Shown here piece after piece: positions 426 through 64,000 of a DNA stretch of 64,000 nucleotides. The notes beneath the pieces are model-generated. The model was not told where the DNA came from. It searched no databases and was given only the letters and a program-made list of their open reading frames with translations. Numbering within the stretch: the stretch's first letter is position 1; the number at the start of each line of letters is the position of its first letter. The translations under genes were made by a program, and so were the position numbers. Source of the DNA: Gari tellinella (lineage: Eukaryota; Mollusca; Bivalvia; Cardiida; Psammobiidae); the NCBI GenBank assembly GCA_922989275.2, contig OV277858.1:104704794-104768793 (forward strand). Reading direction: 5' to 3'.

Positions 426-654
426 TACAGTGAAGAAAAAAATGTTATTCTTTTCCGTTTAAACGCGTTCGAAATGCAACTGCAATGCACAAAAATATAG
501 AAAAAATCATTTTCACTCACGAATCACTTTTCATTTATGAGTGGCAAACAGTTTGGAGCCAGATCAGACACCGGGTTACCCGGCGTCTGATCTGACTTCA
601 AACTGTTTGCAATGGAAATGATAGCTGTGAAAGAATGAGGTCTTCTCTACTGTA
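426..654 (+). mobile_element. MITE A2
   Basis: Full-length but diverged A element. Ends CAGTGAAG and TCTCTACTG are bounded by TA on both sides. Core palindrome at 543-610. Confidence 0.85.
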
Positions 655-671
655 CCATAAAATATCCTAGA

Positions 672-931
672 TACAGTGGAGAATCTGTTATTCTTTCCCG
701 TGTAAACGCAAACGTACGCAAACGTACGCAAACGCAAAGCACTAAAACGTAGAAAAGAACAACTTTTGGACAGTTCTGATAATTAATGTTTATCTTGGTG
801 GCAAACAGTTTGGAGCCTGATCAGACGCCGGGTTACCCGGCGTCTGATCTGGCTCCAAACTGTTTGCACTGTAAATAATAGTTTTAGCGTAAACGCGTTT
901 ATTGGGAAAGAATAACAGATTCTCCACTGTA
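672..931 (+). mobile_element. MITE A3, young subfamily
   Basis: TA-CAGTGGAGAATCTGTTATTC at the left and its reverse complement at the right. Core palindrome at 801-867 with inner stem CGCCGGGTTACCCGGCG. About 10 bp longer than the 250-bp copies because ACGTACGCAA is doubled near 713-730. It splits a local duplication at TA. Confidence 0.95.
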
Positions 932-983
932 AGCGTTGGTAAACACAACTAAAAAGGACATGTTTCCATAAAACAATTTTTGT

Positions 984-1005
984 TCACATGTATAAGTACT
1001 TTCTT
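984..1005 (-). CDS. Possible terminal coding exon of the split secreted-protein gene
   Basis: On the minus strand a strong acceptor (TGTTCCACTTTTCAG) precedes one base and then six codons (RKYLYM) and TGA. The phase fits the preceding exon at 1718-1502, which ends with two bases of a codon, and the split codon would be Ala. A 3' UTR would run into MITE A3, whose minus strand carries AATAAA. This is only a candidate: such a short open stretch can arise by chance, and the real next exon may lie off the left edge. Confidence 0.25.
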
Positions 1006-1130
1006 CTGAAAAGTGGAACATAGGGCTTGTATGAGACAAACTGATTTATAAATACCATTTGGTAAGGGTTAGCATTGTAGTCATTTTGCAATATACTGTT
1101 AAAATCTAATCTAAATAAATCAAATCTAAA

Positions 1131-1400
1131 TACAGTGCTCCCTCTCTATAACAACACCCATTGGAAGACAAAGAGTGTATGAGTTGTTCGGAGGGAGTTG
1201 TTATACGGAGGGAAATCGGCTAAAGATTGCAAACAGCTTGAATCCAGATCAGTCGCGCTTAACACAGCGTCTGGTCTGGATTAAAGCTGTTTGTCACTCG
1301 TGATTATGTTGTGTTTGTTCTATCAAACTGTCAAATAAGAAATGAGAAAACAGCAGAAGACAATTTTAAACAGACGATATTGCAGCAATGAAATAATTAC
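1131..1400 (+). mobile_element. MITE B1, right end lost
   Basis: Starts TA-CAGTGCTCCCTCTCTATAAC and carries a variant core (AAACAGCTTGAATCCAGATC) at about 1230-1292. The usual right terminus is not recognisable; the right boundary is approximate. Confidence 0.8.
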
Positions 1401-1501
1401 TGTTGTCTAAAATAAACTTGACCAAACAAGGATGAAAGCAAGCTGTTGGGTATATCCGCCGCTAACATGCAAAGAGTTAACGATGGTCGAATCACACTTA
1501 C

Positions 1502-1718
1502 GCATCTATTTCAAATACATCAACATTCGTTGCAAATCCACCCGGTTCGATCGAGTTCTCAATACCAGTGATTTCGTAGACGAATATAGGACAAGCACAT
1601 CCGGCCTCACTTGGGTACGTCGTCGAGTTGTAGCTTAGTGGACGTCCAGCATTGGCATCATCTTCGTTGATTTCGACTAGCTGATATTTCTGATTGAACT
1701 TTGGTACGTTGTCTTCGA
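1502..1718 (-). CDS. Internal exon 4 of a split gene for a predicted secreted protein (unknown family)
   Basis: 217-bp exon open in a single frame, read right to left. The acceptor is TTTTTTCACTCTGTGCATTCAG just above 1718 and the donor is GTAAGTG just below 1502. It starts with two bases completing a codon whose first base is in exon 3 and ends with two bases of the next codon. The roughly 72-residue segment is acidic, begins EDNVPKFNQKYQLVEINED, has a Cys pair (GCACP) near its middle and ends NVDVFEIDA. The DNxPxF plus VEINED pattern faintly recalls the start of a cadherin repeat, but the Cys pair and the short upstream context do not fit well, so I assign no family. MITE C1 begins 23 bp upstream of the acceptor. 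The frame, both splice sites and phase agreement with exon 3 make this the best-supported exon in the window. Confidence 0.75.
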
Positions 1719-1741
1719 CTGAATGCACAGAGTGAAAAAAG

Positions 1742-2048
1742 TTAACCCTTTCATGATCAAATTTTTTGGGAGATTTTAACCCCTTCACCGCTTTATTGTC
1801 GTGTGCTTCAGTATTGTTGTCTGCAAGACACGTTTCAGGCAGCGTTAGATTTAAGGTTGTATGACTTAATAAATATCGAGAAGAGTGTCAACCAGTTTGG
1901 GTCCTGATCAGACGCCGCGTTACAGGACCCAATCTGTTTGCAAACGCTTTTTGGCGTCATTAGGAGGGAAATGGTTATGCGGCGTCTGATCAGGCCCGAA
2001 ACTGTTTGCAAACGCGTTTTAAAGCGTCATTGAGAGTGAAAAGATTAA
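1742..2048 (+). mobile_element. piggyBac-like MITE C1 with internal duplication
   Basis: TTAA-bounded, left end TTAACCCTTTCATGATC, right end GAGTGAAAAGATTAA. The right half is doubled: a core half at about 1893-1940 and a second from about 1979. The first copy breaks at the palindrome tip (CGCCGCGTTA). Confidence 0.8.
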
Positions 2049-2070
2049 ACGTGTGCTAAGTAGTTATTCT

Positions 2071-2222
2071 TTAACCCATTACTCAATACACATATGCACT
2101 TTAACGCCTTTAACTTATTGCTCCACTGAAGAAAATAGTTGTAGTTTATATAGGTGTACTCTGCTTTACCTTCAACCTGTCTTTAGTGGTCACCTGAATC
2201 CGTAACTGGAAACAAGGGTTCA
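2071..2222 (-). mobile_element. MITE E fragment
   Basis: Starts TTAACCCATTACTC and retains the E flank CTCCACTGAAGAAAATAGTT and CTGCTTTACCTTCAACCTG. The central palindrome is largely deleted and the right end is approximate. Confidence 0.6.
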
Positions 2223-2229
2223 TGACTGT

Positions 2230-2577
2230 TACATGGGATAAAACGTTACTTCTTCCCGTTCAAACGGAATCAAAACGCAAATGTATTGCACAAAGGGTAG
2301 ACAATAAAAAAACTTTTGACAATTTTGAATGTCCATGTCAATCTGAATGGCAAATGGTTTGGAGTCTGATCAGACGCCGGATTACCCGTATAGTGTAGAA
2401 AAATTAAATCTTCTGACAATTTTGAATGTTCATTTTGATCTGAATGGCAAACAGTTTAAAGCCTGATCAGACGCCGGTTTACCCGGCGTCTGATCTGGCT
2501 CCAAATTCTTTGCAATGGAAATACATGTTTTAGTGTAACGGCGTTTATTGGAAAAGAATAATGTATTCTCCACTTTA
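2230..2577 (+). mobile_element. MITE A4 with internal tandem duplication
   Basis: A element with decayed ends (TACATGGGATAAAACG; TTCTCCACTTTA). About 95 bp are doubled: GAATGGCAAA followed by a core half occurs near 2345 and again near 2443. The first copy stops in the palindrome loop (GCCGGATTACCCG). Confidence 0.8.
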
Positions 2578-2625
2578 TGTTTTATTCCCAGAAACGCTGA
2601 ATAATGTGTCGTCAGATAGAGTTCC

Positions 2626-2875
2626 TACAGTGGAGAATCTGTTATTCTTTCCCGTTTAAACGAAACGAAACGCAAACGCAAAACACTAAAACGTAGAAAA
2701 GTGCAACTTTTGGATAATTCTGATAATTCATGTTTATCTTGGTGGCAAACAGTTTGGAGCCTGATCAGACGCCGGGTTACCCGGCGTCTGATCTGGCTCC
2801 AAACTGTTTGCAATTGAAAAATTAGTTTTAGCGTAAACGCGTTTATTGGGAAAGAACAACAGGGTCTCCACTGTA
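2626..2875 (+). mobile_element. MITE A5, young subfamily (250 bp)
   Basis: Exactly 250 bp including a TA at each end. CAGTGGAGAATCTGTTATTC at the left, intact core at 2742-2812. It lies 60 bp downstream of the donor of exon 3 of the minus-strand gene. Confidence 0.95.
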
Positions 2876-2935
2876 ACTGTTAGCCACTAGTTTTTCTTAG
2901 ATTTAAACTCAAATAGAAAACGTTAAACAACATAC

Positions 2936-2997
2936 TTGAATTTTGGCATGATGATCCAGTCTTGCAGGGGTCACACCTACACCCACCATCTTTTCCT
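2936..2997 (-). CDS. Internal exon 3 of the split gene (Cys-rich segment)
   Basis: 62-bp exon with acceptor GACTCATTTCAG and donor GTATGT. In the phase imposed by exons 2 and 4 it encodes one completed Gly and then GKDGGCRCDPCKTGSSCQNS. The Cys spacing C-x-C-x2-C-x5-C resembles the last third of an EGF-like module with one Gly replaced by Cys, but that is only a resemblance. It starts with one base and ends with one base of a codon, which matches exon 2 (ends with two bases) and exon 4 (starts with two bases). A second frame is also open but does not fit the neighbouring phases. Confidence 0.65.
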
Positions 2998-3230
2998 CTG
3001 AAATGAGTCGTAAAAGTATACATGTTTACAATTTTTAAGATAATAATAAAACGTAAACAACCAATATGTTCTTCAAAGTAAGTCAGCTAAGAAGTAACAC
3101 ATCTCAATCAGACGATTATACCGAGTAGTTTCAACATCAATTATACGACTTATATTAATTATAACATATGTTTGCCATATTCTGTGCGAACATGAGGGGT
3201 TTATAAGTTGCAAAACTTAAGCTGTTTGTA

Positions 3231-3550
3231 TACAGTGCTCCCTTTTGTCAACAAAACTCAATGGGAGACAACTATTATGCGTGTTGTTTCAGAGTAAATT
3301 TTCAAACAGTTTGAAACCAGATCAGACACAGCGTCTGATCTGGATTCAAATTGTTAATCACTCGTCATTACGTTTATTCTGTCAAAAATGTCCAATGTAT
3401 AACTTTGAGATACACAGCAGACAACCATTTTAAGCAAACGATATTGCAGCAGTGATAGCGTTAGTCAATATCTAATTTAGGGAACAGCAACAAGCTTTGT
3501 TGTAAGGAGGGAATCGTGGTTCAGAGGGCCGTTGTGTGGAGGAAGCACTA
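3231..3550 (+). mobile_element. MITE B2
   Basis: TA-CAGTGCTCCC at the left; right end carries GGGCCGTTGTGTGGAGGAAGC then ACTA. The core at 3305-3355 has lost its inner stem (GATCAGACACAGCGTCTGATC). Confidence 0.85.
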
Positions 3551-3589
3551 TATATTGTATTATTCAGTACAATTAGAGTTGGGAAGGCA

Positions 3590-3765
3590 TTGGTATTTCG
3601 TCCTCGAACCAACCCGTACGCAAACTTTCTGTGTAGAAAACTAGTTTCTTGAAAATGCTGTCAATTCTTCCGAAAGGACAACAGTTTAGAGTACGGTCAA
3701 AATCAAAATCAAATTACCCAGTGTCAGATTTGACTCCAAATTGTTTGCAATCGACATTAAATTTA
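3590..3765. mobile_element. Decayed A-like palindromic fragment
   Basis: Degenerate arms CAACAGTTTAGAG and GACTCCAAATTGTTTGC with an A-like left flank (GTACGCAAAC). No recognisable termini. Confidence 0.4.
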
Positions 3766-3770
3766 TTGTT

Positions 3771-3977
3771 TTAACCCTTTTGGCGCAAAATTATACGGGA
3801 GAATTTTACCTCTTCACCGCTTTTTTGTCGTCCTCTTCAGCATTGTTCAAAGTAAGCTTTAAGGTTGTTTGACTTAAGAAATATCGATGAGTATGTCATT
3901 TTTTTAAGCGGCGTCAGATCTGGATCCAAACAGTTTGCAAAGTCGACTTCATGCGACGACGGCGCCGAAAGGGTTAC
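3771..3977 (+). mobile_element. piggyBac-like MITE C2, half of core lost
   Basis: Starts TTAACCCTTTTGGCGC and ends GCCGAAAGGGTTA. Only one arm of the core remains (GGCGTCAGATCTGGATCCAAAC). Confidence 0.7.
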
Positions 3978-4121
3978 AACAAATGATACCCTTAACTACA
4001 ATCGCATATATTCTTGCAACCCCTACTATAATTACGGAAATCAGCAAGGTGAGCTGATTTTCCACAATCGGCTTAATGAACGAAGGTTGTAAAACTATGC
4101 TGTTACAATGTATCCGGGCTC

Positions 4122-4348
4122 AAACCGCGGAGAAGACGTTATTACTTCCAGTTTGAACGCAAACGAAATGTATATACATGTACTCGTTGGACATTTTTAT
4201 TATTCTTTTTAATCTGAATGACAAACAGTTAGAAGTCTGATCAGACGCCGGGATACCGGGCGTCTGATCTGGCTCTGTTTGCAATCGGGATATAGTAGAT
4301 TTAGCGTGCACGCGTTTATTGGGAAAGAAGAATGTCGTTTCCATAGCA
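4122..4348 (+). mobile_element. MITE A7 (old)
   Basis: GCGGAGAAGACGTTATTACTTCC at the left and GGGAAAGAAGAATGTCG at the right, with the core at 4222-4290. Both termini have decayed. Confidence 0.7.
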
Positions 4349-4486
4349 TCTGTATTGAAAGACTGCATGTTATTTATTTAACATGGCTGCTAATCCTAAC
4401 CTCCTCTCTCTAAACCCAATCAACCCTAATGACGAATAATCTCGTCATTAACAAACCACATACCTGTGAAATCTACTAAGCCATGT

Positions 4487-4562
4487 CCAATGCAAACAGT
4501 GTATACCTGATCAGAGGGCACATGCAGGAGCCCTCTGATCAGGGTCTACTCTGTTGGTCATG
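4487..4562. repeat. D-type palindrome D1
   Basis: Arms GCAAACAGTGTATACCTGATC and GATCAGGGTCTACTCTGTTG with inner stem AGGGCACATGCAGGAGCCCT. The ends of the host element are not clear. Confidence 0.65.
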
Positions 4563-4802
4563 TTTATACATTTTTGTTAAAACAACCCAATATGGTAAAA
4601 TGTTGACTATGATCAATATGAAATTGGGGATGTCGGTTCGGAATGGGTTGGGTGTTCCGAGTTGTCATTGTACTAGGAATCTTGAAACTGATGTGAGACA
4701 ATCCGTATGTCAATACATTTAATCCTATCTGAGACCGAAGCCGTGCATAGAAAAGGTCACATGTAACATATCGTCTGCTTGTCGCGTGACATAACACACA
4801 TT

Positions 4803-4972
4803 TTGCAAACACTTTGTATCTAGATCAGACTCTGCGAAACGCGGTTTGCAGCCAGTATTCAGACTGCATTTACCCTCGTGTTAAGGTTTGTTATTGTTAA
4901 GTTTAGCTAATATCTAAAAACAATTGCAGACAACTGTGAAGCAGAAGACATTGTCTCGGGTCAATGGTTAAG
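4803..4972 (-). mobile_element. Decayed C-like element
   Basis: Core arm GCAAACACTTTGTATCTAGATC, then a C-type flank with GCAGACAACTGTGAAGCAGAAG, ending GGTCAATGGTTAA. Confidence 0.45.
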
Positions 4973-5012
4973 TGATTATATGGCTCAAGGCAGCGTTTTC
5001 TGGCCTGGAATT

Positions 5013-5227: not shown

Positions 5228-5303
5228 TGGCTGTAGGCAGCGTTTTCAGGTCTGGAATTTACCAGTACTTCCACATGCTTTAGACCAATGAATACTCTTT
5301 AGT

Positions 5304-7651: not shown

Positions 7652-7692
7652 ATCCTGGCAGATGGTAACTTAAATCAGGCTGAAAGGACAGA

Positions 7693-7963: not shown

Positions 7964-7991
7964 CTGCAAATACATGTACAGAACGATAACT

Positions 7992-10123: not shown

Positions 10124-10579
10124 TACAGTGGCAAAGACGGTTTACTTTCCCAATTAATGCAGTTATGATAAAATCAGTATGTCATTTGCGCCAAATCAGA
10201 CAACAGGTAACCTAAAAAGTGTCTGGTAGTGCTTCGGCTGGAAGCACAATATTTTGTCCTTTTACGAGGGCACTGAAACTTTGGGAACAGAAAGGGTAAA
10301 GACAAATCGGTCAAATAAGCAACCTTGTTACAGAAGGTCCGTTACAAGGACAAACAAACAATTAAATAGGCACACTTGGCTGTTTGCATGTCGATCGCGA
10401 CTTGACTGTTATGTACAAACTATTTGGATCATGATCAAGTGACAAGTGACGTTGCGTGTCACTCTGATTAAAATAATAGTCAGAATTGTCAACATGTGTT
10501 CAGTTTCTACGTTTAATTGCAATGCGTTTTTGTGTTTTGTTTGCGTTTAAACGGGAAAGAATAACTTTTTTCCACTGTA
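10124..10579 (-). mobile_element. Old MITE A12 with about 200 extra bases
   Basis: TA-CAGTGGCAAAGACG left and CGTTTAAACGGGAAAGAATAAC, CCACTG-TA right. The core is disrupted and about 200 bp of unrelated sequence lie inside (about 10225-10425). Confidence 0.7.
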
Positions 10580-11064: not shown

Positions 11065-11525
11065 GATAAATTATAATGATTTTTTAGCAAAAGTGACGAA
11101 ATACTTTTAAAAACATCCCGTATTTGGGTTTAAGAATAAACAGTTAAAACTGAAGGAAATGTCGTAAGTATCTTTTGTGTACAAAAATGTTAGCATGTCA
11201 CGTAAGCAAAATGTAGGAGGTTAATCCATTGAACTATATTTATGCAGAGTAAATTTAATGTTTTTGAAATAGCACCCGTTCCCGAAATGTCAACCGGTTT
11301 AGTTGTATGAATTGTTCTGCAAACGGTGTTCCAAAAATTTGCCGAGTTTTAGTCGTGCAATGTTTTTGAAATCGAACAAAACTTTCTTCTTGTGGTGCTC
11401 TGCGGATACATTTATATGTTTTAATAATCAGTAGTCTAGATGGGATAAAATGTAAAAATATAAAGTGTGATTAATTTCAAACCAAGTGGCAAGCGATTTC
11501 AGATCATCTGTAAAGTGTTTACATG
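11065..11525. other. Unassigned stretch
   Basis: AT-rich. It has a donor-like GTAAGTATC near 11166 on the plus strand, but no open exon with a matching acceptor. Confidence 0.3.
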
Positions 11526-11775
11526 TACAGTGGAGAATCTGTTATTCTTTCCCGTTTAAACGCAAACGTACGCAAACGCAAAGCAATAAAACGTAGAAAA
11601 TTACAACTTTTAGACAATTCTGATAATTCATGTTTATCTTGGTGGCAAACAGTTTGGAGCCTGATCAGACGCCGGGTTACCCGGCGTCTGATCTGGCTCC
11701 AAACTGTTTGTATTGTAAATAATAGTTTTAGCGTAAACGCGTTTATTGGGAAATAATAACAGATTCTCCACTGTA
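11526..11775 (+). mobile_element. MITE A14, young subfamily (250 bp)
   Basis: 250 bp including both TAs, with ends AATCTGTTATTC and AACAGATTCTCC. Differs from A5 and A39 at few positions. Core at 11642-11710. Confidence 0.95.
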
Positions 11776-11800
11776 CAGCATGATCGAGTGTTGTGTTAGG

Positions 11801-12138: not shown

Positions 12139-12139
12139 A

Positions 12140-15384: not shown

Positions 15385-15561
15385 TACAGTGGAAACAATA
15401 CGTTTCTGCCCCAATAAACATGATTGTTCTAAAACAATTGTCAACGCAACTCTGCAATACATTAATCGTAAGAAATTTCAAGATGTCATTTACTACATTA
15501 GATTGCAACGCGCTTGCGGTAAGTTTCGTTTAAACGGAAGTTAATAATGGCGTCTTACGAC
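15385..15561 (-). mobile_element. Old A element without core
   Basis: TA-CAGTGGAAACAATACG left, CCAATAAACATG, and GTTTCGTTTAAACGGAAG right. The central palindrome is missing. Confidence 0.55.
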
Positions 15562-19873: not shown

Positions 19874-20123
19874 TTCACGCTTTCACTCTCAATGACGCTT
19901 AAAAGCGCGTTTGCAAACAGTTTGGATCCTGGTCAGACGCTGCTTAACGCGGCGTCTGATCAGGATTCAAACTGTTTGACAATCGTTTTGAAAATTTCTT
20001 CAGTCATACTGCCTTATATTTTAGCTCTGGAACGACATTGCAGACAACAAAGTTGAAGCAGACGACAATGAAACGGTGAAGGGGTTTAAATCTCACGAAA
20101 ACATTTGGCAGTGAAAGGGTTAA
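19874..20123 (-). mobile_element. piggyBac-like MITE C8
   Basis: Right end GGCAGTGAAAGGGTTAA; left end CACTCTCAATGACGCTTAAAA. Core at 19912-19979 with GGATCCTGGTCAGACGC. The flank GCAGACGACAATGAAAC matches family C. Confidence 0.85.
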
Positions 20124-28330: not shown

Positions 28331-28574
28331 TTAACCCTTTCAATCCTACAGCCCTCTGTATAGATAACTGATGACCTTGATAAGCAAACAGTGTAGACCC
28401 TGATCAGAGGGCTCCTATAGGAGCCCTCTGATCAGCGTCTACAATGTTTGATATGTTCATTGATTTTTGTTGTCATAAAAAATGCAACAGTAGACTGGTA
28501 CAAAATGTATGTACAAGAAGAGTCCAAAAGGATAACAAGTACCCACAAGAGATATTTAGGGTTGAATGGGTTAA
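28331..28574. mobile_element. piggyBac-like MITE D2
   Basis: TTAACCCTTTCAATCC left and GGGTTGAATGGGTTAA right. The central palindrome at 28383-28450 is near perfect, with inner stem AGAGGGCTCCTATAGGAGCC. Confidence 0.88.
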
Positions 28575-28851: not shown

Positions 28852-29395
28852 ATTCAGTAGAGAAGATGGTATGTTTTTCCTCTCTACAACGACATCCAGT
28901 GGGAGATACAGAGTGTGTGTGTTATTCGGAGGGAGTCGTTACAGAGAGGGAAAATTAAGACTTGGCTTATATGGCAAACAGGTTGAATCCAGACCAGGCG
29001 CCGTGACGCGGCGCCTGATCTGGATTCAAGCTGTTTGTCACTCATGATTATACTTATTTTATCAAAATGTCCACTTATATGTAATTTTAAGAAAAACAGC
29101 AGACGGCAATTTTGAGCAGACGACATTGCAGCAGTAAAATCGTTCGACATAATTGTCCGGTTTAGAGAACTGAGACAAGGGTCATGGTAAGGAGGGAGTC
29201 GTTGTTGGGAGGGCCGTTGTAGGGAGGGAACACTATATTCGCGTTTGTGCTAAAATAAGTGTGCATTTTCCATCGGTTTGGAACCTGAGTACATTCTTAA
29301 CCCAGGGTCTGATAAGGTTCCAAACTATCTGTCTCTGAGATTAATATAAAGTGTTATCTTCTATATATTATTGAACTGCCTTTTCGTTGAGTTGT
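28852..29395 (-). mobile_element. Old A element split near its end by B4
   Basis: Left CAGTAGAGAAGATGG, then B4, then CGCGTTTGTGCTAAAA and the core CATCGGTTTGGAACC / GGTTCCAAACTATCTG. Removing B4 and one TA restores A order. The right end is decayed. Confidence 0.7.
28870..29237 (+). mobile_element. MITE B4 nested in an A element
   Basis: TTTTTCCTCTCTACAACG left and GGGCCGTTGTAGGGAGGGAAC right, TA at both sides. Core at 28972-29040, inner stem GGCGCCGTGACGCGGCGCC. Confidence 0.88.
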
Positions 29396-30518: not shown

Positions 30519-30711
30519 TACAGTCGAACTTCGATATCTCGAACTCGTTTTACTCGAACTATCGATAGCTCTATATATGAACTGATTGATTTCATGCTCG
30601 GTTGAGTCGAACATACCCATATTTCAAAGTTAAAATGTGGCATAGCTACGTTTTAACTTCGAAATACGGGTATGTTCGACTCAACCGACTCGAGATATCG
30701 AAGTTCGGCTA
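30519..30711. mobile_element. Palindromic MITE N (pogo/Tigger-like ends)
   Basis: TA-CAGTCGAACTTCGATATCTC pairs with CGAGATATCGAAGTTCGGC. A second inverted repeat (GTCGAACATACCCATATTTC) lies inside. Confidence 0.85.
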
Positions 30712-35718: not shown

Positions 35719-35914
35719 TTAACCCCTTCACTGCCATGACGTCATCAAATTCTTCTATTTCTATTTTTTTTCAGGTATTTTGACTTCCGAAATATTGAAA
35801 CGAGTGTCAAACAGTTTCGATCCTGATCAGACGCCGCGTAACGCGGCGTCTGACCAGGATCTAAACTGTTTGCAAATAACTACTGTACTCGGGGTAGGGT
35901 AGTGAAGGGGTTAA
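35719..35914 (+). mobile_element. piggyBac-like MITE C11
   Basis: TTAACCCCTTCACTGCCATG left and GGGTAGTGAAGGGGTTAA right. Core at 35809-35876 with inner stem GACGCCGCGTAACGCGGCGTC. Confidence 0.93.
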
Positions 35915-37620: not shown

Positions 37621-37871
37621 TACAGTAGAGAAGCTGTTATTCTTTCCCGTTTAAACGCAAACGGAACGCAAATGCATTGCAATGAAATATAGAAAATAAC
37701 AATTTTTAGACAATACTGACTATTCTTTTTAATCTGAGTGGCAAACAGGTTGGAGCCTGATCAGACGCCGGGTTATCCGGCGTCTGATCTGGCTCCAAAC
37801 TGTTTGCAATGGAAATAATAGTTTTAGCGTAAACGTTTTTATTGGGAATTAAAACCGTCTTCTCCTCTGTA
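37621..37871 (+). mobile_element. MITE A29
   Basis: TA-CAGTAGAGAAGCTGTTATTC left and ACCGTCTTCTCCTCTG-TA right, intact core at 37740-37808. Confidence 0.93.
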
Positions 37872-37948: not shown

Positions 37949-38163
37949 TTAACCCTTATCATGCTAGCACGACTTGGCTTTCGTTTGCAAACAGTTTGGA
38001 GACTGATCAGACGCCGCGTAACGCGGCGTCTGATCAGGCTCCAAACTGTTTGCCACTCAAATAAAACTTTGTTTTCAAATTTAAAAAAAAGAAAATTATT
38101 CTGATGTTCTTTCGCAGACAAATATATTTATAGCAGACGACAGTTCAGTATGGTTAAGGTTAA
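37949..38163 (-). mobile_element. piggyBac-like MITE, C variant (P)
   Basis: TTAACCCTTATCATGC left and GTATGGTTAAGGTTAA right, intact core at 37986-38053 with CGCCGCGTAACGCGGCG. The flank GCAGACGACAG is C-like. Confidence 0.85.
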
Positions 38164-41054: not shown

Positions 41055-41405
41055 TAAAGTGCTCCCTCCATTCAACGGCCTTCCCAATAACAACTACCTC
41101 CTTAAAACGACCCTTGGCGTAATTCCCTAAAGAGGACAATTATGTCTAACCTAGTCACGGCTGCAATGTCGTATGCTTAAACTTGATGTCTGCTGTTTTT
41201 CTCAAAGTTACATAATGGACATTTTGACAGAAAAAAGATAATGGCGAGTGGCAAACAACTTGAATCCAGATCAGACGCCGCGTCTGATCTGGATTCAAGC
41301 TGTTTTCAAATGTAAGCTAATTTACCTCCCTATTACGACTCCCTCCGAACAACGCACACATTCTGTGTCTTCCATTGGGTGTCGTTGTAGAGAGGGAGCG
41401 CTGTA
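41055..41405 (-). mobile_element. MITE B6
   Basis: Reverse B with both ends (TGCTCCCTCCATTCAACGG; GTAGAGAGGGAGCGCTG-TA). The core has lost its tip (GATCAGACGCCGCGTCTGATC). Confidence 0.9.
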
Positions 41406-41477: not shown

Positions 41478-41611
41478 ACAATATATCAGTGCATGAAATA
41501 GGACGGATTTGATCTGCTTGAGGAGAAACCAGTGATTGTCCGGCAAGTCTCGCAGTCACTAGTTGCTCCCCTCACAGAATAAACTCGTTCCATCTCATGC
41601 AATGATATATT
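41478..41611. mobile_element. Palindromic element R
   Basis: AATATATCAGTGCATGAAATA pairs with CATCTCATGCAATGATATATT. The interior has CAGTGATTG / CAGTCACTAG. B7 inserts at its right edge. Confidence 0.65.
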
Positions 41612-41969
41612 ACAGTGCTCCCTCTCTACAACGATTCCCAATGGGAGACAACAAGTGTATGCGTTGTTCGGGGGGAGTCGTTACAGGGAGGGAAATCGGA
41701 CGACATTTACAAACAACTTGAATCCAGATCAGACGCCGCGTAACGCGGCGTCTGATCTGGATTCAAGCTGTTTATCACTCGCCAGGAAGTTCATTTCTTT
41801 CAAAATGTCCATTATGTAACTTTGAGAAAAACAGCAGAGGACAATTTTCAGCGGACGATATTACAGTCGTGAACGGGTTAGATATAATTGTACTTGTTAG
41901 GGAACCGTAGCAATGGTTGTAAGGAGGAAGTCGTTGTTGGGAGGTCTGTTGTAGGGAGGGAACACTGGA
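41611..41969 (+). mobile_element. MITE B7, near complete
   Basis: TA-CAGTGCTCCCTCTCTACAAC left; TTGTAGGGAGGGAACACTG right. Intact core at 41709-41771. Confidence 0.92.
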
Positions 41970-43940: not shown

Positions 43941-44161
43941 TTAACCCATTTGCGGCCTGTGGATTCTTCCATGTTTATATATTGGATTAGTCCATTTTCT
44001 TATCAAAGTGATGCCCGGTCAGAATTTTCAACTTCATTTTTGAAACTCCTGCCAACAAAGAGAGTAGACTCTATTCAGACGCCGCATAATGCGGCGTCCG
44101 ATCAGAGTCTACAGTGTTTGCATATGTCCCATATATGGGATCGTGGGCACAAATGGGTTAA
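43941..44161 (+). mobile_element. piggyBac-like MITE L1
   Basis: TTAACCCATTTGCGGCC left and GGGCACAAATGGGTTAA right. Central palindrome GTAGACTCTATTCAGACGCC / GGCGTCCGATCAGAGTCTAC. Confidence 0.9.
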
Positions 44162-44265
44162 ACATAGCATCGCTACGCATTGTACATTTGTATTTCTTAT
44201 ATTTTCATAAACTGTAATGCTTTTACTCTTGTCATGCCAATCGCGACTCGGCTAATTGGTGAATA

Positions 44266-44330
44266 CCGTTTTGACCCAGATAGGACGGCGAGTAGCTCGG
44301 CGTCTGATCTGGATCCAAACTGCCTCACAC
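44266..44330. repeat. Degenerate core palindrome
   Basis: CCGTTTTGACCCAGATAGGAC / CGGCGTCTGATCTGGATCC. Confidence 0.55.
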
Positions 44331-44639
44331 AAATTTTAGATTTGTTCTATAAAGAAAAGCAACAAAAATAAGTTGATTCGTATGCAGAATACCTGTATGC
44401 AGACGCTAATCCAGGATGACAAGTGACAACAAATAATGTACATGTTGTAAAACTAAATGCTTGAATGTAAACGTATATATGAAGTGCTATTGATGATGTA
44501 GTTTTCCTACTTAATTATGTGTCTGGTTGCTACCATATATCTATCAGGGAAACCAAACTTTCGAAATTGCAAAAAATCATTTATTCGAAATGTTTAAGTC
44601 TACCACCTTCCCCCACACTGAAAGTTATTATAACCCATA

Positions 44640-49465: not shown

Positions 49466-50791
49466 TTAACTATTTCACTGTCAACGGCGCCAAATGGCGA
49501 CTTTGCACACAGTTTGGATCCTGATCAGACGCCGCGTAACGCGACGTCTAATCAGGATCCAAACTGACTTACAATCGTAATGACGTATCAACATTTCGAT
49601 AGTCAAAGCCACAGGTACTTGACACATACTTTATTATCTATTAACCCCCCCCCCCCCTTTTTTAAAAAAAAATTTTTTTTTTTTTTTTTTTTATTATACT
49701 TCTATTATAGATACAAGGTAAACAGCGCAATTCGACACCTAGTCTTTACTATCCACTTTTACTGATGCTAAAATAGACTCGATCGCCGATATTCTCTTGT
49801 GGTATCCTCGGGAAAGGATTAATTTATCAATATCTACTTTTTATTTCATCAAATTCCGTCAAATAACGCCACAGTACGTGAATTATAACGAAAATAAGCA
49901 TAAAAAAGTTTTCTGTCGTTCTCTTGGTACAGAATTTATTGCCCAAAATAAGGGGTAATCTAGTCGGTTTGCACATTTAACGGCCTTTACGGCTGGAACT
50001 TTCACCTAATTTCATTAGAGCAAACGCGTTTGTGTCGGAACATGACCCTCTTCACTATCAGCTATATGAAATATACATGTAATTTGGCATGAAATTGACA
50101 AGTGAAAGACTCATTTCATTGTGAATGCCATTTTGAATACCGGAATGAATTGAATGAACGGAGCGATCTCATTGGTCAAAATTAAACAGGTAAAGTTTCT
50201 TTTAATTTTGCATTCTATGTAAATTATATAAAACTGATAATATTTCATTTAAAGATGATTTATAATATTTGGTGAAAGTTCCAGTGGCATAGGCCGTTTA
50301 TTGTGGACAAATAACAGATCACCCCTACATGTACATTCGTTGCTATGTACAATTCTGTACCAAGAGAACGACAGAAAACTTTTTTATGCTTATTTTCGTT
50401 ATAATTCACGTACTGTGGCGTTATTTGACGGAATTTGATGAAATAAAAAGTAGATATTGATAAATTAATCCTTTCCCGAGGATACCACTAGAGAATATCG
50501 GCGATCGAGTCTATTTTAGCATCAGTAAAAGTGGATAGTAAAGACTAGGTGTCGAATTGCGCTGTTTACCTTGTATCTATAATAGAAGTATAGTAAAAAA
50601 AAAAAAAAAATTTTTTTTTTTAAAGGGGGGGGGGGGTGTTAATAGATAATAAAGTATGTGTCAAGTACCTGTGGTCAAAGCTGTCCTTACGCTGACTTTT
50701 GTAATATTGCAGACGAAACTACCAAAGCAGACAATATTTTGGCGGTAAGATCGTTAAAGCAGACGATAAAATGTGGCAGTGAAAGAGTTAA
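49466..50791 (-). mobile_element. piggyBac-like MITE C16 split by W
   Basis: TTAACTATTTCACTGTC left and GGCAGTGAAAGAGTTAA right. Core at 49505-49568. Interrupted by W at GTCAAAGC. Confidence 0.88.
49610..50673. mobile_element. Foldback element W, 1064 bp, 8-bp target duplication
   Basis: Outer arms of about 330 bp are near-identical inverted repeats starting CACAGGTACTTGACAC, and weaker pairing continues inwards. Bounded by GTCAAAGC at 49602-49609 and 50674-50681. The arms include a C14 run followed by T/A runs. The 8-bp duplication suggests hAT. No gene. Confidence 0.93.
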
Positions 50792-50855: not shown

Positions 50856-51065
50856 TACAGTAAAACCTCTCTATTACGACCACTAAATTATGTTAATTTT
50901 TAGGGTGTTTACCATAGGTGACAGCTTAAAGCAATGTGACAGAGAAACAGAAAGCTCCTTTAGGAGCTTTCTGTTTCACTGTCACCTTGCTTTAAGCTGT
51001 CACCTGTATATTAAATAATCAATAAGCTTTCATTTTAGTGGTCGTAATAGCGAGGTTTTACTGTA
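50856..51065. mobile_element. MITE K, intact with central hairpin
   Basis: TA-CAGTAAAACCTCTCTATTAC left and GTAATAGCGAGGTTTTACTG-TA right. Central hairpin GGTGACAGCTTAAAGCAATG / CTTTAAGCTGTCACC with tip GAAAGCTCCTTTAGGAGC. Confidence 0.93.
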
Positions 51066-51345: not shown

Positions 51346-51489
51346 TAAATATCGAGGTCAGAACATTAAAAGCCAACAACTTCTATATGTAACAACCTAT
51401 TATAAATTGTTTGAAAATAGTTGAACAGAAAAGGTAAACAAATCTGACCCGTTAATATTTTTGTAGTACATGTGTATTTACCGAGATAG

Positions 51490-51680
51490 ATCTAACACTT
51501 TCACTGCTTCGATATCGTCTCCTTAAAATTGTCGTCTGCTGGTTTTTTTTCTCACAGTTACATATTGAACGTTTTGCCAGAGGAATCCTTAAGACGGGTG
51601 ACAAACAGTTTGAACCCAGATCAGACGCCGCGTTACACTGTTTGCATATGTAAGCCAAATCGTGCTCGGCACTCACAGGG
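51490..51680 (-). mobile_element. B10 fragment
   Basis: TAACACTTTCACTGCTTCG, GTCGTCTGCTGG and the core arm GACAAACAGTTTGAACCCAG then GCGTTACACTG: the second arm is lost. Confidence 0.6.
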
Positions 51681-51689
51681 TTAGGACTA

Positions 51690-51996: not shown

Positions 51997-52324
51997 TACA
52001 GTGCTCCCTCTCTACAACGACATCCAGTGGGGAAAAATATTGTGTGTGTTGTTCGGAGGGAGTCGTTATAGGGAGGGGAATTTAAGACTTTGCTTACAAA
52101 CAGCTTGAATCCAGACCAGATGCCGCGTAACGCGGCATCTGATCTGGATTCAAGCTGTTTGTCACTCGTCATGATATTTATTCAATCACAATGTCCACTT
52201 AGATAGACTATAGTGCACCACTAAAAGCGTCAGACATAAGTGTCTTGTTTAAGGAATTGCGGCAAGGGTCGTTGTAAGGAGGGAGTCGTTGTTGGGAGGG
52301 CCGTTGTGGGGAGGGCGCGCTGTA
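51997..52324 (+). mobile_element. MITE B11, near complete
   Basis: TA-CAGTGCTCCCTCTCTACAAC left and TTGTGGGGAGGGCGCGCTG-TA right. Perfect core at 52099-52161 with GATGCCGCGTAACGCGGCATC. Confidence 0.93.
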
Positions 52325-52683: not shown

Positions 52684-52930
52684 GTTTACCCATTTGTACC
52701 CACGATCCCATATTTTGGACATATGCAAACAGTGAAGACTCTGATCAGACGCCGCATTATGCGGTGTCTGATCAGAGTTTACACTGTTTGCTGATAGGAA
52801 ATAACAAAATGAAAATGAAAAATTTGACCAGGCATCCCTTTGATAAAAATTTGACCAGGCATCCCTTTGATAAAAATGGACTAATCCAATAAAAAACATG
52901 GAAGAATTTACTTGGTGCAAATGGGTTGAA
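52684..52930 (-). mobile_element. piggyBac-like MITE L2 with a short internal duplication
   Basis: TTTACCCATTTGTACCC left and GTGCAAATGGGTTGA right. Palindrome GAAGACTCTGATCAGACGCC / GGTGTCTGATCAGAGTTTAC. About 29 bp containing TTTGACCAGGCATCCC are doubled. Confidence 0.85.
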
Positions 52931-53871: not shown

Positions 53872-54121
53872 TACAGTGGATAATCTGTTATTCTTTCCCG
53901 TTTAAACGCAAACGTACGCAAACGCAAAGCACTAAAACGTAGAAAAGAACAACTTTTGGACAATTCTGATAATTCTTGTTTATCTTGGTGGCAAACAGTT
54001 TGGAGCCTGATCAGACGCCGGGTTACCCGGCGTCTGATCTGGCTCCAAACTGTTTGCACTGCAAATAATAGTTTTAGCGTAAACGCGTTTATTGGGAAAG
54101 AATAACAGATTCTCCACTGTA
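53872..54121 (+). mobile_element. MITE A39, young subfamily (250 bp)
   Basis: Exactly 250 bp; TA-CAGTGGATAATCTGTTATTC and AACAGATTCTCCACTG-TA. Core at 53989-54057. Confidence 0.95.
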
Positions 54122-58700: not shown

Positions 58701-60450
58701 GTCAATTTACATTGCAAAAAAAGCTCTATTTTCTGCTCAAATAGGTTTAAAACAAAAGCTGACAGACTTGAATATGATCAGGAACATAGATTAGATCTAT
58801 AATCTACGTTCCTGCATTTGCATTACATGATTTTAAAAAATAGTCAAGCAGCAAAATATGTCGATATTCAGCTTCTTCGGTCGGAGTAAATTAGTTTTCG
58901 CAGGAGCGAAATTTATTTCGAACGCTTTTTTAAACACCGAAAATGTAACCGATCAATTATTTTGATACATAATAACACTTTTCTGAAGGAAATATATAGA
59001 AACAGCAGATAATTATTCCAAGATGGTAGGCGTTATCTCTATAAAAATGCAATTATTGGCAAATTAAATAGCCAAATCAGCTCTATTTTCTGCTCAAATA
59101 GGTTTAAAACAAAAGCTGACAGACTTGAATATTATGATAAACATGCATTAGCATTACATGATTTTAAAAAATAGTCAAGCGGCAAAATATGTCGACATTC
59201 AGCTTCTTCGGTTGGAATAAATTAGCTTTCACAAAAGCGAAATTTATTTCGAACGCTTTTTTAAACACCGAAAAGTTAACCGATCAATTATTTTGATACA
59301 TAATAACACTTTTCTGAAGGAAATATATAGCAACAGCAGATAATTATTCCAAGATGGTAGGCGTAATCTCTAAAAAAATGCAATTATTGGCAAATTAAAT
59401 AGCCAAATCAGCTCAATTTTCTGCTCAAATAGGTTTAAAACAAAAGCTGACACAGTGACAGACTTGAATATTATGGAATACATGAATTAGCATTACATGA
59501 TTTTAAAAAATAGTCAAGCAGCAAAATATGTCGACATTCAGCTTCTTCGGTCGGAGTAAATTAGCTTTCGCAGAAGCAAAATTTATTTCGAATGCTTTTT
59601 TATAAACCGAAAAGTTAACCGATCAATTATTTTGATACATAATAACACTTTTCTGAAGGAAATATATAGAAACAGCAGATAATTATTCCAAGATGGTAGG
59701 CATTATCTCTATAAAAATGCAATTATTGGCAAATTAAATAGCCAAATCAGCTCAATTTTCTGCTCAAATAGGTTTAAAACAAAAGCTGACACAGTGACAG
59801 ACTTGAATATTATGGAATACATGAATTAGCATTACATGATTTTAAAAAATAGTCAAGCGGCAAAATATGTCGACATTCAGCTTCTTCGGTCAGAATAAAT
59901 TAGCTTTCGCAGAAGCAAAATTTAATTCGAACGCTTTTTTATAAACCGAAAAGTTAACCGATCAATTATTTTGATACATAATAACACTTTTCTGAAGCAA
60001 ATATATTGAAACAGCAGATAATTATTCCAAGATGGTAGGCGTAATCTCTATAAAAATGCCATTATTGGCAAATTTAAAAGCCAAATCAGCTCTATTTTCT
60101 GCTCAAATAGGTTTAAAACAAAAGCTGACAGACTTGAATATGATGGAATACATGCATTAGCATTACATGATTTTAAAAAATAGTCAAGCGGCAAAATATG
60201 TCGGCATTCAGCTTCTTCGGTCGGAGTAAATTAGCTTTCGCAGAAGCGAAATTTATTTCGAACGCTTTTTTATAAACCGAAAAGTTAACCAATCAATTAT
60301 TTTGATACATAATAACACTTTTCTGAAGGAAATATATAGAAGCAGCAGATATATTCCAAGATGGTAGAATGAATCTATATAAAAAAAGAAGTTGTTGGCA
60401 ATTTATAGTCTAATTGGCTTTATTTTCTGCTAAAATAGGTTGGAAACAAA
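55771..60450. repeat. AT-rich satellite with higher-order structure
   Basis: Tandem monomers of 329-359 bp. The mark GATGGTAG recurs at 55914, 56270, 56601, 56932, 57279, 57635, 57965, 58306, 58665, 59022, 59353, 59692, 60031 and 60360. Long monomers (a, 356-359 bp) carry a palindrome GGAACATAGATTAGATC / GATCTATAATCTACGTTCC. Type b has ATAAACATGCATTAGC. Type c has GACACAGTGACAG. The order is a b b c a b c a a b c c and a b/c mixture. All share TTAGCTTTCGCAGAAGCGAAA. The small repeated open frame is a monomer shadow. Confidence 0.97.
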
Positions 60451-60458
60451 AGCTGACA

Positions 60459-60935
60459 GTGGAAGTAGTGACAGTTGTTGTAGTGGTAGCAGCAGCAATG
60501 GTAGTAGCGAAGATGGTTGTGGTAGTAGCAGTGATAGTAGTAGTTTTAGTAGTAGTACTAGTAGTAGTTGTTGTTGTAGAAGCAGTTGTTGTAGTAATTG
60601 TTGTTGTAGTAGTAGTAGAAGTAGTAGTAGTAGTAGTAGTGGTAGTAGTTGTAGAAGAAATCAGCAGTCATATCAGTAGCAGTAGTACTAAGTAGCAGCA
60701 TTCTTAATAGTAGCATTCATAGTAGTGGTAGTAGTAGTTATCGTTGTGGTTGTAGTTATTTTATCAGAAATTTGAGAATATATTTGTCGTGTAGGTGGTG
60801 GTAGTAGTTGTAGTAGCATTACTAGTAGTATCATTAGAAAAAGTAGTAGTAGTAGTAGTAGTAGTATCAGTAGTAGTAGTAGTAGTAATAGTAGTAATAA
60901 TAGAAATAGTAGTAGTAATAGTTGTAGTTGTAAGT
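60459..60935. repeat. (AGT/GTT)n triplet array
   Basis: AGT and GTT triplets with interruptions; a less regular part lies at 60690-60830. Poly-Val, poly-Ser and poly-Leu frames are artefacts. Confidence 0.95.
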
Positions 60936-61004
60936 TTATTTCAACAGCACATGGCACAGTCTTTTAAGTTATAATCGTGCAGATCGACTCCTGACTAAGG
61001 TTTT

Positions 61005-61065
61005 TAGACAGTGTGGATCCTTGATTACGTACTTTTCATCTGATCAGGATTTTGCAAACAGCAAG
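61005..61065. repeat. Degenerate core palindrome
   Basis: GACAGTGTGGATCCTTGATTA and CATCTGATCAGGATTTTGC. Confidence 0.4.
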
Positions 61066-61515
61066 AAATAACTGATATACCGATACATTAGAATGTTTGT
61101 AGTTTCCTTTACATGGCTTTTATTCTTTGAAACCAACCAAATCCAAGTGGGCCAATGTGATTAAAACTATTTGTGTATTGTGACAAAGAAAATGATTTTT
61201 TTAAATTCGTGGTTCTATGCAAAATTCACTAAATTCGGAGGATTTACATCCGCTTATGACTCCATTTAAGTCGTATTTGGGTATGTGTAATAAACATTCA
61301 ATCCGGAATGTCAACTCAGACCACAAGACACAGCGGGCGACCGTGTCTGTTTAAGGTTTTATGACCGTTTAAAGAACACTCTTCTGATTGCAGTATAAAA
61401 CGTACATTGCTAAAAATTCCTTATTACAATAGAATAGAAGAGAATGGATGAATCCACTTTTCATTCAAAGAGTGCTGTTCTATGTTTTATATTTTTGTTT
61501 TAGATTGATAGAAAA
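61066..61515. other. Unassigned stretch between the triplet arrays
   Basis: AT-rich, no supported exon or repeat end. Confidence 0.3.
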
Positions 61516-61519
61516 TGCT

Positions 61520-61830
61520 GTTAGAAAACAGTGTAGACTCAGACCAGACGCGGCATTATACTGCATAATTATGATATGAGTCTGCACTGCTGGATTGTGT
61601 CCCATTTATTAAACGTTTGTACATCGTAATAATATGTCAAACAGTGATTGATCTGACCTGACGTAGAATCGTCATTACAACTTAAATTAACCCTAGCTGT
61701 GACCCATAGTGACGCGTAAAATTCAATGTATTTTGTACAGTGAACCTGTCAAGTTTACACTCATCATGTAGAAACACTATAGACCCAGAGCAGATGTCTC
61801 ATAGAGGATCCGTGTGTTCAGAGTATTTTG
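61520..61830. repeat. L/D-type remnants
   Basis: ACAGTGTAGACTCAGACCAGACGC with TGAGTCTGCACTGC at about 61530-61600, and a second remnant near 61680-61820 (TTAACCCTAGCTGTGACCC). Confidence 0.45.
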
Positions 61831-61925
61831 TTTAATCTATTGTAAACTATTAATGTCATATTTAATTCGAAACTTGAATTGTTCACTTGAATTTTCAGGA
61901 TTAATAAGCTATAATAAACTAGACG

Positions 61926-62004
61926 ATGGATTTTACTACTACTTCTACTACTACATGTACTCATGGAGAAAGGACATCCTTTCTCCATGATGTACTACAT
62001 GTAT

Positions 62005-62045
<41 letters not shown>

Positions 62046-62280
62046 TTACTACTACTACATGTACTACTAATACAACTACTACAACAACTACTACTACTAC
62101 TACTACTTCTACTACTACTACCACTACTACTACTACCACTACTTCTACTACTATAACTACTACTACGACCACCACCACTACTACTACTACGTCTACCACT
62201 TCTACTACTTCAATAATAAAACTATTACTTATAACTATTTCTGTTACTACTGTTACTATTACCGCCTCCACTTTTTCCGC
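61926..62280. repeat. (ACT)n triplet array
   Basis: ACT triplets with CCA, TTC and ATT variants, opposite in sense to the array at 60459. Contains a palindrome GGAGAAAGGAC / GTCCTTTCTCC-like near 61965-61990. Confidence 0.95.
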
Positions 62281-62482
62281 TACTGCTACTACCGTCATCA
62301 AGATGATTTTGAAAAGTCGCATCATAGAGAATTCAGTCACATGATTTAAAGAGACTCGCAACCAGATTTAGCTTAAAAATAGTAATTTTTAAATATATAT
62401 CGAACTCTTAGACGGGTAAGAATAAGTCTAGAACAAAAAATTCTGTTTAAAAATGCATTTCAATAATAAAAATATTTTGAGC

Positions 62483-62566
62483 TCTGGTGGGATTAGAACT
62501 CGGGACCCGGCGGGGACAGAGAGAGCAAAACACAACCCGTTAGCCCACTGGGCTATGCCGGACTGT
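62483..62566 (-). other. tRNA-like sequence
   Basis: On the minus strand, GGCATAGCCCAGTGGGCTAACGG (A box with paired arm) and GAGTTCTAATCCCACC (B box), with a long variable region. Probably a SINE head. Confidence 0.55.
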
Positions 62567-62719
62567 ACCAAAGGCGGTATCAATTTAACATATTTGTCTT
62601 CATAGCGCGGGAGAATACCTAAATAGGTTCGCGTTTATTTCTAACCCCGTGATCGATATATGTAACATTTTCTCTTCTGGGGAAATTTAAATGAATATAT
62701 ATATTACAATTTTGTAAGT

Positions 62720-62950
62720 TAGCACTCGGTCAATTATGTCTGTTGATGCTGATTGCATATTTTCGCTAATATTTTTCGTTAAATTTTATCGATTCCTTTT
62801 TTGTTACAACCGCTTCGGAAAAATCGCTTGAAACGATTTTTTAGCTTAATCGATTTTCAAAGCGCCCGATTCGATGGCAATTCGATGGCAATTCGATGGC
62901 AATTCGATGGCGATTATCAATTTAATTTAATAAGGTTCAGTACTGTAAGT
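62720..62950 (+). repeat. F repeat copy
   Basis: CCGCTTCGGAAAAATCGC, then four ATTCGATGGCA-type units, then TTTAATTTAATAAGGTTCAG and TACTG-TA. Confidence 0.75.
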
Positions 62951-63567
62951 AGTCACATGCCAACAAAACTAGAAATCGGCTATGGGGTAAAGGTACGATT
63001 CGTAAAATCGCGCTTGAAAATGCATATTTGGAAATCTTAGGATTTTTCATTTCAACTTATGGAAGCCCTGTATTATAATGCAATCTGAAACTATTTTTGG
63101 AAGTCATATGACCACCAATAATGACGTCATTATTTATATAGATGACGTATTGGTAATCCGTTATTTTTATCGGTTCGATTGAGAAGTAGCTTTTTGCAAA
63201 TAACGTTCATATTTAGCGTTAAAGGGTATGAATTGAACTGTTTGAAATTTTGTCATTTGGAGGAAATCATTACAAGTAAGTGTTGTGGGTTATTCATTCT
63301 TAAAATGGTTTAAAAATATCACCGAAATCGGAAATTCCGAAACATCACGCACAACTCTTCGTAAAAACCGTGACGTCATCATCCAAGATGTCAGCCCCCA
63401 TGTTTTGTAGTTGCCTAGTTTTGAGGAAATTATTCACGCGCAAATCAAACACTTTTCAAAGGCTGTCAGTGATTGAATAGAATTGAAATACCTTTGATTT
63501 TATCATGCATTACTTAAGAACGGAAAAAGGCAAGCCTTTTTTCCGTATGACCCATTGGTGTTTCTTG
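62951..63567. other. Unassigned stretch
   Basis: Contains TGACGTCAT-type sites near 63123 and 63371, but no supported exon or element end. Confidence 0.3.
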
Positions 63568-63807
63568 TACCGTGGAGAAGACGTTATTCTTTCCAATTAA
63601 ACGCGCTTATGCTAAATCTAATATTTCCATTACAATCAGTTTGGAGCATGATCAGACACCGCAAAACCTGGCGTCTGATCAGGCATCAATCTGTTTGCCA
63701 CTCATATTAAAATAAATCGTGAGAAATGTCAACAAATTGTTATTTTCTACATTTTAGTGCATTGTGTTTGCATTCGCTTGGGAAAGAATAATATCTTCTC
63801 CGCAATC
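63568..63807 (-). mobile_element. MITE A41
   Basis: TA-CCGTGGAGAAGACGTTATTC left, core at 63635-63699, right end AATATCTTCTCCGCAATCC (decayed). Confidence 0.85.
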
Positions 63808-63811
63808 CATG

Positions 63812-64000
63812 TACAGTGGAGAATCTGTTATTCTTTCCCAATAAACGCGTTTACGCTAACACTATTATTTACAATTTACAAACAGTTTGGAGCCAGATCA
63901 GACGCCGGGTAACCCGGCGTCTGATCAGGCTCCAAACTGTTTGCCACCAAGATAAACATGAATTATCAGAATTGTCTAAAAGTTGTTCTTTTCTACGTTT
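63812..64000 (-). mobile_element. MITE A42, cut by the window edge
   Basis: TA-CAGTGGAGAATCTGTTATTC left and intact core at 63879-63944. Young subfamily; continues past 64000. Confidence 0.93.

Follow-up and report, generated by a model that had tools for sequence, protein, structure and literature searches.

A palindromic hairpin core shared by TTAA- and TA-target miniature transposons of the bivalve Gari tellinella, and its capture by nested insertion in one family

The stretch of DNA considered here, called the window throughout, is 64,000 nucleotides (nt) long and comes from the bivalve Gari tellinella (contig OV277858.1, positions 104,704,794 to 104,768,793 of the forward strand). It holds many small transposons with differing ends, inside which lies one and the same core, an oriented 65-nt palindrome (with GGCTCCAAACTGTTTGCA in A-type cores). 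An earlier note, made from the letters alone, had placed this palindrome in elements named A, B, C, P, D and L, and the arms, the named ends and the TA or TTAA flanks were all confirmed in the window. Allowing up to 2 mismatches, arm CAAACAGTTTGGA matches the window 118 times against 3.1 expected and arm GATCAGACGCCG 99 times against 1.2 expected, and four core queries at E 0.05 give 87 core loci.

Families A and B have a TA target and CAGTG-type terminal inverted repeats (TIRs), as in miniature inverted-repeat transposable elements (MITEs) of the Tc1/mariner-pogo type; we take them to be pogo-like from TA plus CAGTG ends alone. Plus-strand A copies lie at 53872-54121 (TA-flanked, with ends CAGTGGATAA and CAGTGGAGAA, core 53992-54056, matching profile A over 1-250 at E 1.4e-89), at 11526-11775 (core 11646-11710) and at 672-931 (core 802-866), the named ends and flanks are also present at 2626-2875, and an older type at 37621-37871 (plus strand) carries GAGTGG before its core at 37742-37806. 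The TTAA-target elements show about six types of end, namely C, P, D, L, a further group D2 and an element with half a core at 3771-3976 (plus strand, ends CCCTTTTGGCGC and CCCTTTCGGCGCC). Exact TTAA stands on both sides of a C element at 35719-35914 (plus strand, ends CCCCTTCACTGCC and CCCCTTCACTACC, core 35808-35872), a D element at 28331-28574 (minus strand, core about 28384-28448, inner stem changed yet palindromic) and an L element at 43941-44161 (plus strand, core 44057-44120), and is degenerate at other copies. Type P, at 37949-38163 on the minus strand, has CCCTTATCATGC at one end and a degenerate other end, and its core (37988-38052) groups with A cores. A terminal CC(C/T)T motif fits C (CCCTTTCACTGCC) and P well and, more loosely, L and D, which start CCCATT, and D2, which starts CTCTTT; the D2 end is apparently TTAA-CTCTTT, a boundary drawn by eye in an alignment of 46 stretches. 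The termini are not all unrelated, as the earlier note had it: a start of the CCC(T/A)T type is common to C, P, D and L, and CAGTG opens A as well as B. Likewise, the inner stem was said to be changed in both D and L. The wholly changed stem GAGGGCTCC does belong to D, but the elements labelled L here (cores 44057-44120 and 52721-52795) retain the inner GACGCCGC stem and differ in the middle arms, one arm of the second core reading ACACCGC, and the labels may differ from those used before.

The core is not peculiar to the window. In the genome searched (1.598 Gb in 80 contigs) exact CAAACAGTTTGGA occurs 431,262 times, 215,333 forward and 215,929 reverse, against 67 (31 and 36) for the reversed control. 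A 200-kb sample, made up of 20 stretches that are each 10 kb long and start from round positions chosen for the purpose, holds 197 core matches at E 1e-4 and 125 at 60 bits or more, with none for the reversed control and from 0 to 21 cores per stretch, which scales to an estimated 1.0-1.6 million cores genome-wide (1.19-1.96 million for the 197 matches when bootstrapped over stretches). The profiles of A, B and C together cover 19.5% of this sample with their hits, a figure to which cores of other families also contribute. When 302 core loci from 288 kb (the window and stretches L001-L028, parts of L001-L008 overlapping one another) were assigned by core-free flank profiles, 107 fell to A, 45 to C, 28 to B and 122 to none. 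Among profile-unassigned loci with full flanks, 72 of 120 have a TTAA-type end within 75 nt, as against 418 of 2000 random positions. Viral contigs and prokaryote genome contigs gave no matches to the core patterns, and plasmids none to element A at 11520-11780.

Family B shows how a TA-target element came by the core. B is composite: within a TA-type MITE, a TTAA element occupies a TTAA site, as is seen both from the structure of B and from an uninserted parent. The copy at 41611-41969 (plus strand, ends CAGTGCTCCC, right TA mutated, core 41710-41774) contains the TTAA-type insert with a remnant of its inner end within 41864-41891. The copy at 28877-29236 (plus strand) has the longer short-side junction GGGAAAA-TTAA-GACTTGGC, with AAAATTAAGACTTGGCTTA inside 28951-28969 and a long-side remnant at 29128-29157. 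A third, at 51997-52324 (plus strand, core 52097-52161), has the junction GGAATTTAAGACTTTGCTTA at 52077-52096, and a fourth, at 41055-41405 on the minus strand (core 41252-41306), has lost 10 nt at the palindrome tip. Profile B is 359 positions long, with the core at about 100-163, and in 11 hand-picked alignments it covers C/P-type window elements past the core, starting at B 85-96 and reaching 267-275 in 10 of them and 251 in 1; the match ends at the element's own TTAA-type end in 7 of these and about 35 nt inside it in 3. The C element at 19874-20123 (minus strand, core 19914-19978) is aligned by profile B over 94-267, and the C-type element most like the B insert, at 51488-51684 (plus strand), over 85-273 at E 3e-34. 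Near 252-269 the B consensus reads GCAGCAGTGAAAGGGTTAG, a C-type end facing inward, and the long flank of B, freed of its core, finds 51488-51585 (E 8e-18), 19993-20086 (E 7e-8) and two weaker stretches (E 0.002). Of the 24 copies of B, some 20 extend as far as the short-side junction; 5 keep it in its longer form, 2 of these with exact TTAA as TTAA-GACTT(G/T)GC, and the P element at 37949 reads TTAA-CCCTTATCATGCTAGCAC-GACTTGGC at the matching place. These junctions predicted an uninserted parent, AGGGAGGGAA..TTAA..ACATAATTGTC, which was set before the genome search. The pattern AGGGAGGGAAN{0,25}ACATAATTGTC then gave 12 genome matches (control 0), one of them, AGGGAGGGAAAATTAAACATAATTGTC, exactly as predicted. 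The insert is absent from the junction in all nine matches read; six (L041, L043, L044, L046, L047 and L049) have both outer parts of B, and the likeness is partial in L048 (left only), L045 (mainly right) and L042 (barely past the pattern). The core is thus in B because one transposon jumped into another.

For family A the route is less direct. The A interior has no clear end of another element, and the pattern ATTCATTTTAAN{0,28}AGTTTTAGCG, a single strict one, gave 5 genome matches (control 0), all different and most of them readable as deletions, with no repeated empty parent among them. That the core of A came from a P-like element, by a route broadly like that of B, is for these reasons something that we infer. 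The core of A is placed amid TTAA cores, beside that of type P. At pairs 14, 17 and 30, 37 of 48 A cores have GC, TT and GC, and another 5 have GC, AT and GC. Three further elements of A type or A-like sequence were noted. In a long A-type copy at 10124-10579 (minus strand, 456 nt), whose interior is about 200 nt longer, the core is decayed and the short flank after it, AAGTCGCGATCGACATG, is P-like; this likeness to P was judged by eye against 37949-38163 and 44222-44420, and the copy is a possible intermediate of A's origin. At 15385-15553 lies an A-like element with no core, either an empty parent or a deletion, and at L027 3032-3605 an A core is split by a foreign element of about 330 nt with its own inverted ends, TACAGTACTGAACC.

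Once acquired, the core stays with its ends. The earlier note had raised the possibility that the hairpin moves between families as a module. It has indeed crossed element classes, but by capture and then descent, as the haplotypes, the core tree and the B junctions with their empty parents indicate. On a core-only tree (111 rows, 65 columns, 76 rows labelled A, B or C), which has no starred branch and in which near-identical copies inflate the clustering, the labels change 5 times against a shuffled mean of 22.5 and a minimum of 17 in 200 shuffles; with the unassigned rows as a fourth group there are 16 changes against 48.2. A single group of 51 (Shimodaira-Hasegawa-like approximate likelihood ratio test, SH-aLRT, 89) takes in all A cores but 1 of the 48, together with the P-type core at 37988, copy 545 (A by its ends), L010_8564 and L027_7782, and 10 of 12 B cores group together (SH-aLRT 94). 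The haplotype also tracks the flank family, with GC at pairs 14 and 30 in 42 of 48 A cores and the family's own commonest type in 12 of 16 C and 6 of 12 B cores. Since cores follow their ends, the core does not hop freely. Exchange by gene conversion or template switching at the palindrome would account for the same core in about eight end types and for A_L026_5139, B_L040_1996 and C_W_1889, which are oddly placed in a mixed tree group, but with haplotypes that track the flanks and so few label changes we regard it as very unlikely.

The arms of the core are mostly complementary. In 337 kb (the window and L009-L040) there are 221 stretches of 55-75 nt with both 7-nt outer arms within one mismatch, and the modal length, 65 nt, is that of 111 of them. 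In these 111 cores, 86% of cells at the 24 inner pairs, which lie outside the selection criterion, are complementary, as against 23-24% after a shift of one arm by 1 to 3, and several pairs, 8, 11, 14, 17, 21 and 30 among them, are found in three or four complementary types each. Folded as single-stranded DNA, four family cores reach -32 to -41 kcal/mol (z -14 to -19). On the side of the long flank, the core is preceded by GAGTG in 10 of 12 cases in B (with at most one mismatch), 15 of 16 C and 13 of 48 A (mostly older copies), and in none of the three families is it mirrored on the opposite side; the shared unit is therefore oriented and slightly larger than the palindrome. Among 68 A copies, 15 compensated cells occur in 14 copies, against 3.5 when shuffled, and represent 11 distinct types, against 3.2 shuffled (11 was reached in 1 of 1000 shuffles) and 3-5 with slid arms; 190 further changed cells are uncompensated. 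In C there are 84 compensated cells of 20 types, against 30.4 and 10.4 shuffled and 3-6 types in the slid controls. Because compensated doubles occur in single copies that otherwise decay neutrally, part of the pairing was probably made by copying from arm to arm rather than by selection. A TTAA-type-looking core at L025 4811-4886 has intact outer arms and an inner stem wholly swapped for another palindrome, GGTCCCAC/GTGGGACC. Cutting of a cruciform, looked for as symmetric deletions at the centre, was rejected: the midpoints of 73 deletions (chance hits included) lie farther from the axis than the null, 6.9 nt against 5.5 (p 0.9998), and 4 of 30 clean deletions are symmetric against 4.6 expected. 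A breakpoint falls within 5 nt of the axis in 19 of these 30, against 14.0 expected (p 0.038, in a post hoc test).

Constraint on the core was assessed by separating private from shared variants in 68 A, 24 B and 69 C-profile copies, the last a mixed set. Private substitutions are no rarer in the core than around it, at 0.0153 in A against 0.0097-0.0119 in flanks and TIRs (p 0.08-0.33), 0.034 in B against 0.034-0.040 elsewhere, and 0.011 in C against 0.004-0.006, the C core being the higher (p 9e-6 against the long side). The shared variants behave differently. Counted without regard to the relatedness of copies, cells that hold a shared minor base are scarcer in the core by a factor of 1.5 to 4, whether the family is of the TTAA or the TA type: 0.042 in the A core against 0.070 in the short flank, 0.097-0.102 in the TIRs and 0.153 in a long flank that aligns poorly owing to repeats; 0.056 in B against 0.087-0.141; and 0.107 in C against 0.30-0.44. 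A first pass over the 19 A copies of the window gave the same private and shared pattern. Counted as distinct shared alleles, again with no correction for relatedness, A has 57 in 65 core columns and 46 in 31 short-flank columns (p 0.001), and the core has fewer alleles per column than the interior flanks of A (p 1e-8 for the long and 0.001 for the short), of C (p 2e-13 and 9e-6) and, in B, than the C-derived long flank (p 0.003) and the right TA-type flank (p 0.004). To judge from these alignments, the core seems to have changed more slowly than its surroundings in the lineages that spread, and not in resident copies. The other proposal of the earlier note, a function selected in each family, gains indirect support, from the scarcity of shared core variants relative to most interior flanks of A, B and C and from the compensated arms.

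Other explanations of this pattern have to be weighed. The core could be a passenger, captured by accident and without a role, its apparent constraint produced by turnover of subfamily flanks and bad alignment. The equal private rates of core and flanks in A and B are what would be expected of a passenger, the B capture resembles a chance nested insertion, and the deficit of alleles per column relative to the TIRs is weak or absent. We nevertheless doubt it, given that every other region of A, B and C, the well-aligned A short flank included, has a higher share of shared-variant cells than the core, and that the five core-deleted forms of A found with one strict pattern are all different, with no repeats. 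A purely mutational origin of the perfect arms, in which arm-to-arm templating keeps any palindrome perfect with no structural selection, is a somewhat better candidate, though we lean against it. The compensated doubles in single A copies, where no selection on the copy is seen, speak for it, as do the replaced inner stems that are again palindromic (D, and L025 at 4811), but templating explains the pairing and not the slower change of arm sequence relative to flanks in the lineages. Finally, the host might keep the core as a binding site, an insulator or a source of small RNA. Hairpins can serve as small-RNA precursors, and about a million similar palindromes would be on offer, but resident copies show private changes no fewer in the core than in the flanks and no Rfam family reaches its gathering score in the window, and to this explanation we give hardly any credence.

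The history that we favor, and consider probable as a whole, is that of an old core of the TTAA lineage, captured in nested fashion by TA elements, with the hairpin kept in the source lineages. The core would be the palindromic heart of an old and very abundant TTAA-target (piggyBac-type) miniature lineage whose ends turned over to give C, P, L, D, D2 and others, and TA-target miniature elements would have gained it through nested insertion. In the case of B, a C/P-type element entered a TTAA in a TA-type MITE, some 18-20 nt were lost at the short end and the composite multiplied; a comparable route, from a P-like element, may have given A its core. Source lineages would keep both the sequence and the pairing of the hairpin while resting copies decay neutrally, mutations would be copied from arm to arm by quasipalindrome correction, and the core may be a cis-acting structure that aids propagation under any transposase, for instance as a cruciform joining the ends. 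That the hairpin is a portable, transposase-independent propagation signal, such that any small element with it would spread better under a TTAA- or a TA-specific transposase, and families with different machinery would each fix it and keep its sequence and pairing in their source copies, is possible, but we hold it only tentatively.

Several points weigh against this history, in addition to the inflated clustering, the relatedness of copies and the poor alignment of the A long flank given above. Exact TTAA is found in just 4 of the 12 matches to the empty B site; among the others, L049 has a local duplication and no TTAA. The match C6 could be a B that was shortened. For A, the one strict pattern turned up no empty parent that is repeated. 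C is scattered on the core tree, with 9 changes against 14.0 shuffled. The core does not clearly have fewer alleles per column than the left TA-type flank of B (p 0.37), and hardly or not at all fewer than the TIRs (p 0.046 and 0.065 in A, 0.28 and 0.72 in B), and deletions are not centred on the axis, either among the 73 or among the 30 clean ones. No transposase for A or B turned up, in work that included no dedicated search for a TA transposase. For the TTAA side, the genome has 86 matches to the piggyBac-type domain PF13843, of which 12 loci were read and 8 gave a TTAA-CC end pair (that of L035 weak). The ends at L030, CCCTTTCGGCGCCA, fit the window element at 3771-3976, whose ends resemble those around the L030 transposase, and ends fitting C, P, D or L were seen at none of the 12. 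An origin of the core in an autonomous piggyBac-type element was considered and, on the 12 loci read of the 86, rejected: five of the eight bracketed elements (L030, L031, L034, L037 and L038) have no core match at E 1e-3, and L029, L032 and L035 have partial or diverged ones.

Other features of the window lie apart from this system. The longest inverted repeat listed for it, at 49651-50636, has 286-nt arms that are 95% complementary and 414 nt apart, and palindromes at 50916-51005 and 30598-30688 have 44-nt arms (95% and 91%) and loops of 2-3 nt and are seemingly unlike the core. A mostly-valine open frame on the minus strand at 61951-62361 consists of a simple repeat and is probably not a gene, and minus-strand sequence at about 1500-1740 resembles, by eye, a cadherin exon.

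MITEs of the piggyBac and Tc1/mariner-pogo types target TTAA or TA, carry short TIRs, lack coding capacity and reach a high copy number. Elements A-D, L and P are like them in these respects, and the shared interior sets them apart. Quasipalindrome correction, by which changes in one arm are copied to the other, is familiar from single loci, whereas here such templating would run across a whole clan of transposons. One palindromic interior common to TTAA and TA families, with compensated arms, was not found in print within the literature searches made, nor were the letters of the core, the latter as judged from the titles of part of the matching papers. In the main text of a survey of bivalve transposons, which describes many MITEs, the string "palindrom" is absent (PMC10294476).

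The internal regions of MITEs normally differ between families (PMC2872659). The statement of the earlier note that it knew of no described system of this kind has to be amended, for the CMITEs of Acropora corals are a published precedent: families with a TTAA target and different TIRs have an interior of about 75 nt that is more conserved than the TIRs, the elements are tied to piggyBac-type transposons, and CMITE-IN is a new element that arose from one inserted into another (PMC2872659, in the parts consulted). The likeness lies in an interior conserved across families with different TIRs. The coral families are all TTAA elements, whereas the core here is found in TA-target families too, and the coral interior is not described, in those parts, as a palindrome with compensated arms. 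The estimated copy number here exceeds the 1,600 of A. millepora by a factor of several hundred to a thousand. The best match of the 60-nt coral consensus in 337 kb is at E 0.29, so homology of sequence was not found.

What the present system adds is a worked case of a conserved interior crossing transposon classes with the parent still present. If it is borne out, in TTAA and TA settings, that the core changes slowly in source lineages and that resident copies show no such slowing, an internal role of MITE sequence in mobility becomes directly testable. In the crossing of classes there is a likeness to the MER6 MITEs, in which the V domain of a short interspersed nuclear element (SINE) was captured between Tc1/mariner-type ends and then amplified (PMC6887750). 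There as here, an interior from another class of element was captured, conserved and multiplied; the MER6 source was a SINE domain, with no hairpin described in the portion of that report consulted, whereas here it is a TTAA element with a hairpin at its heart.

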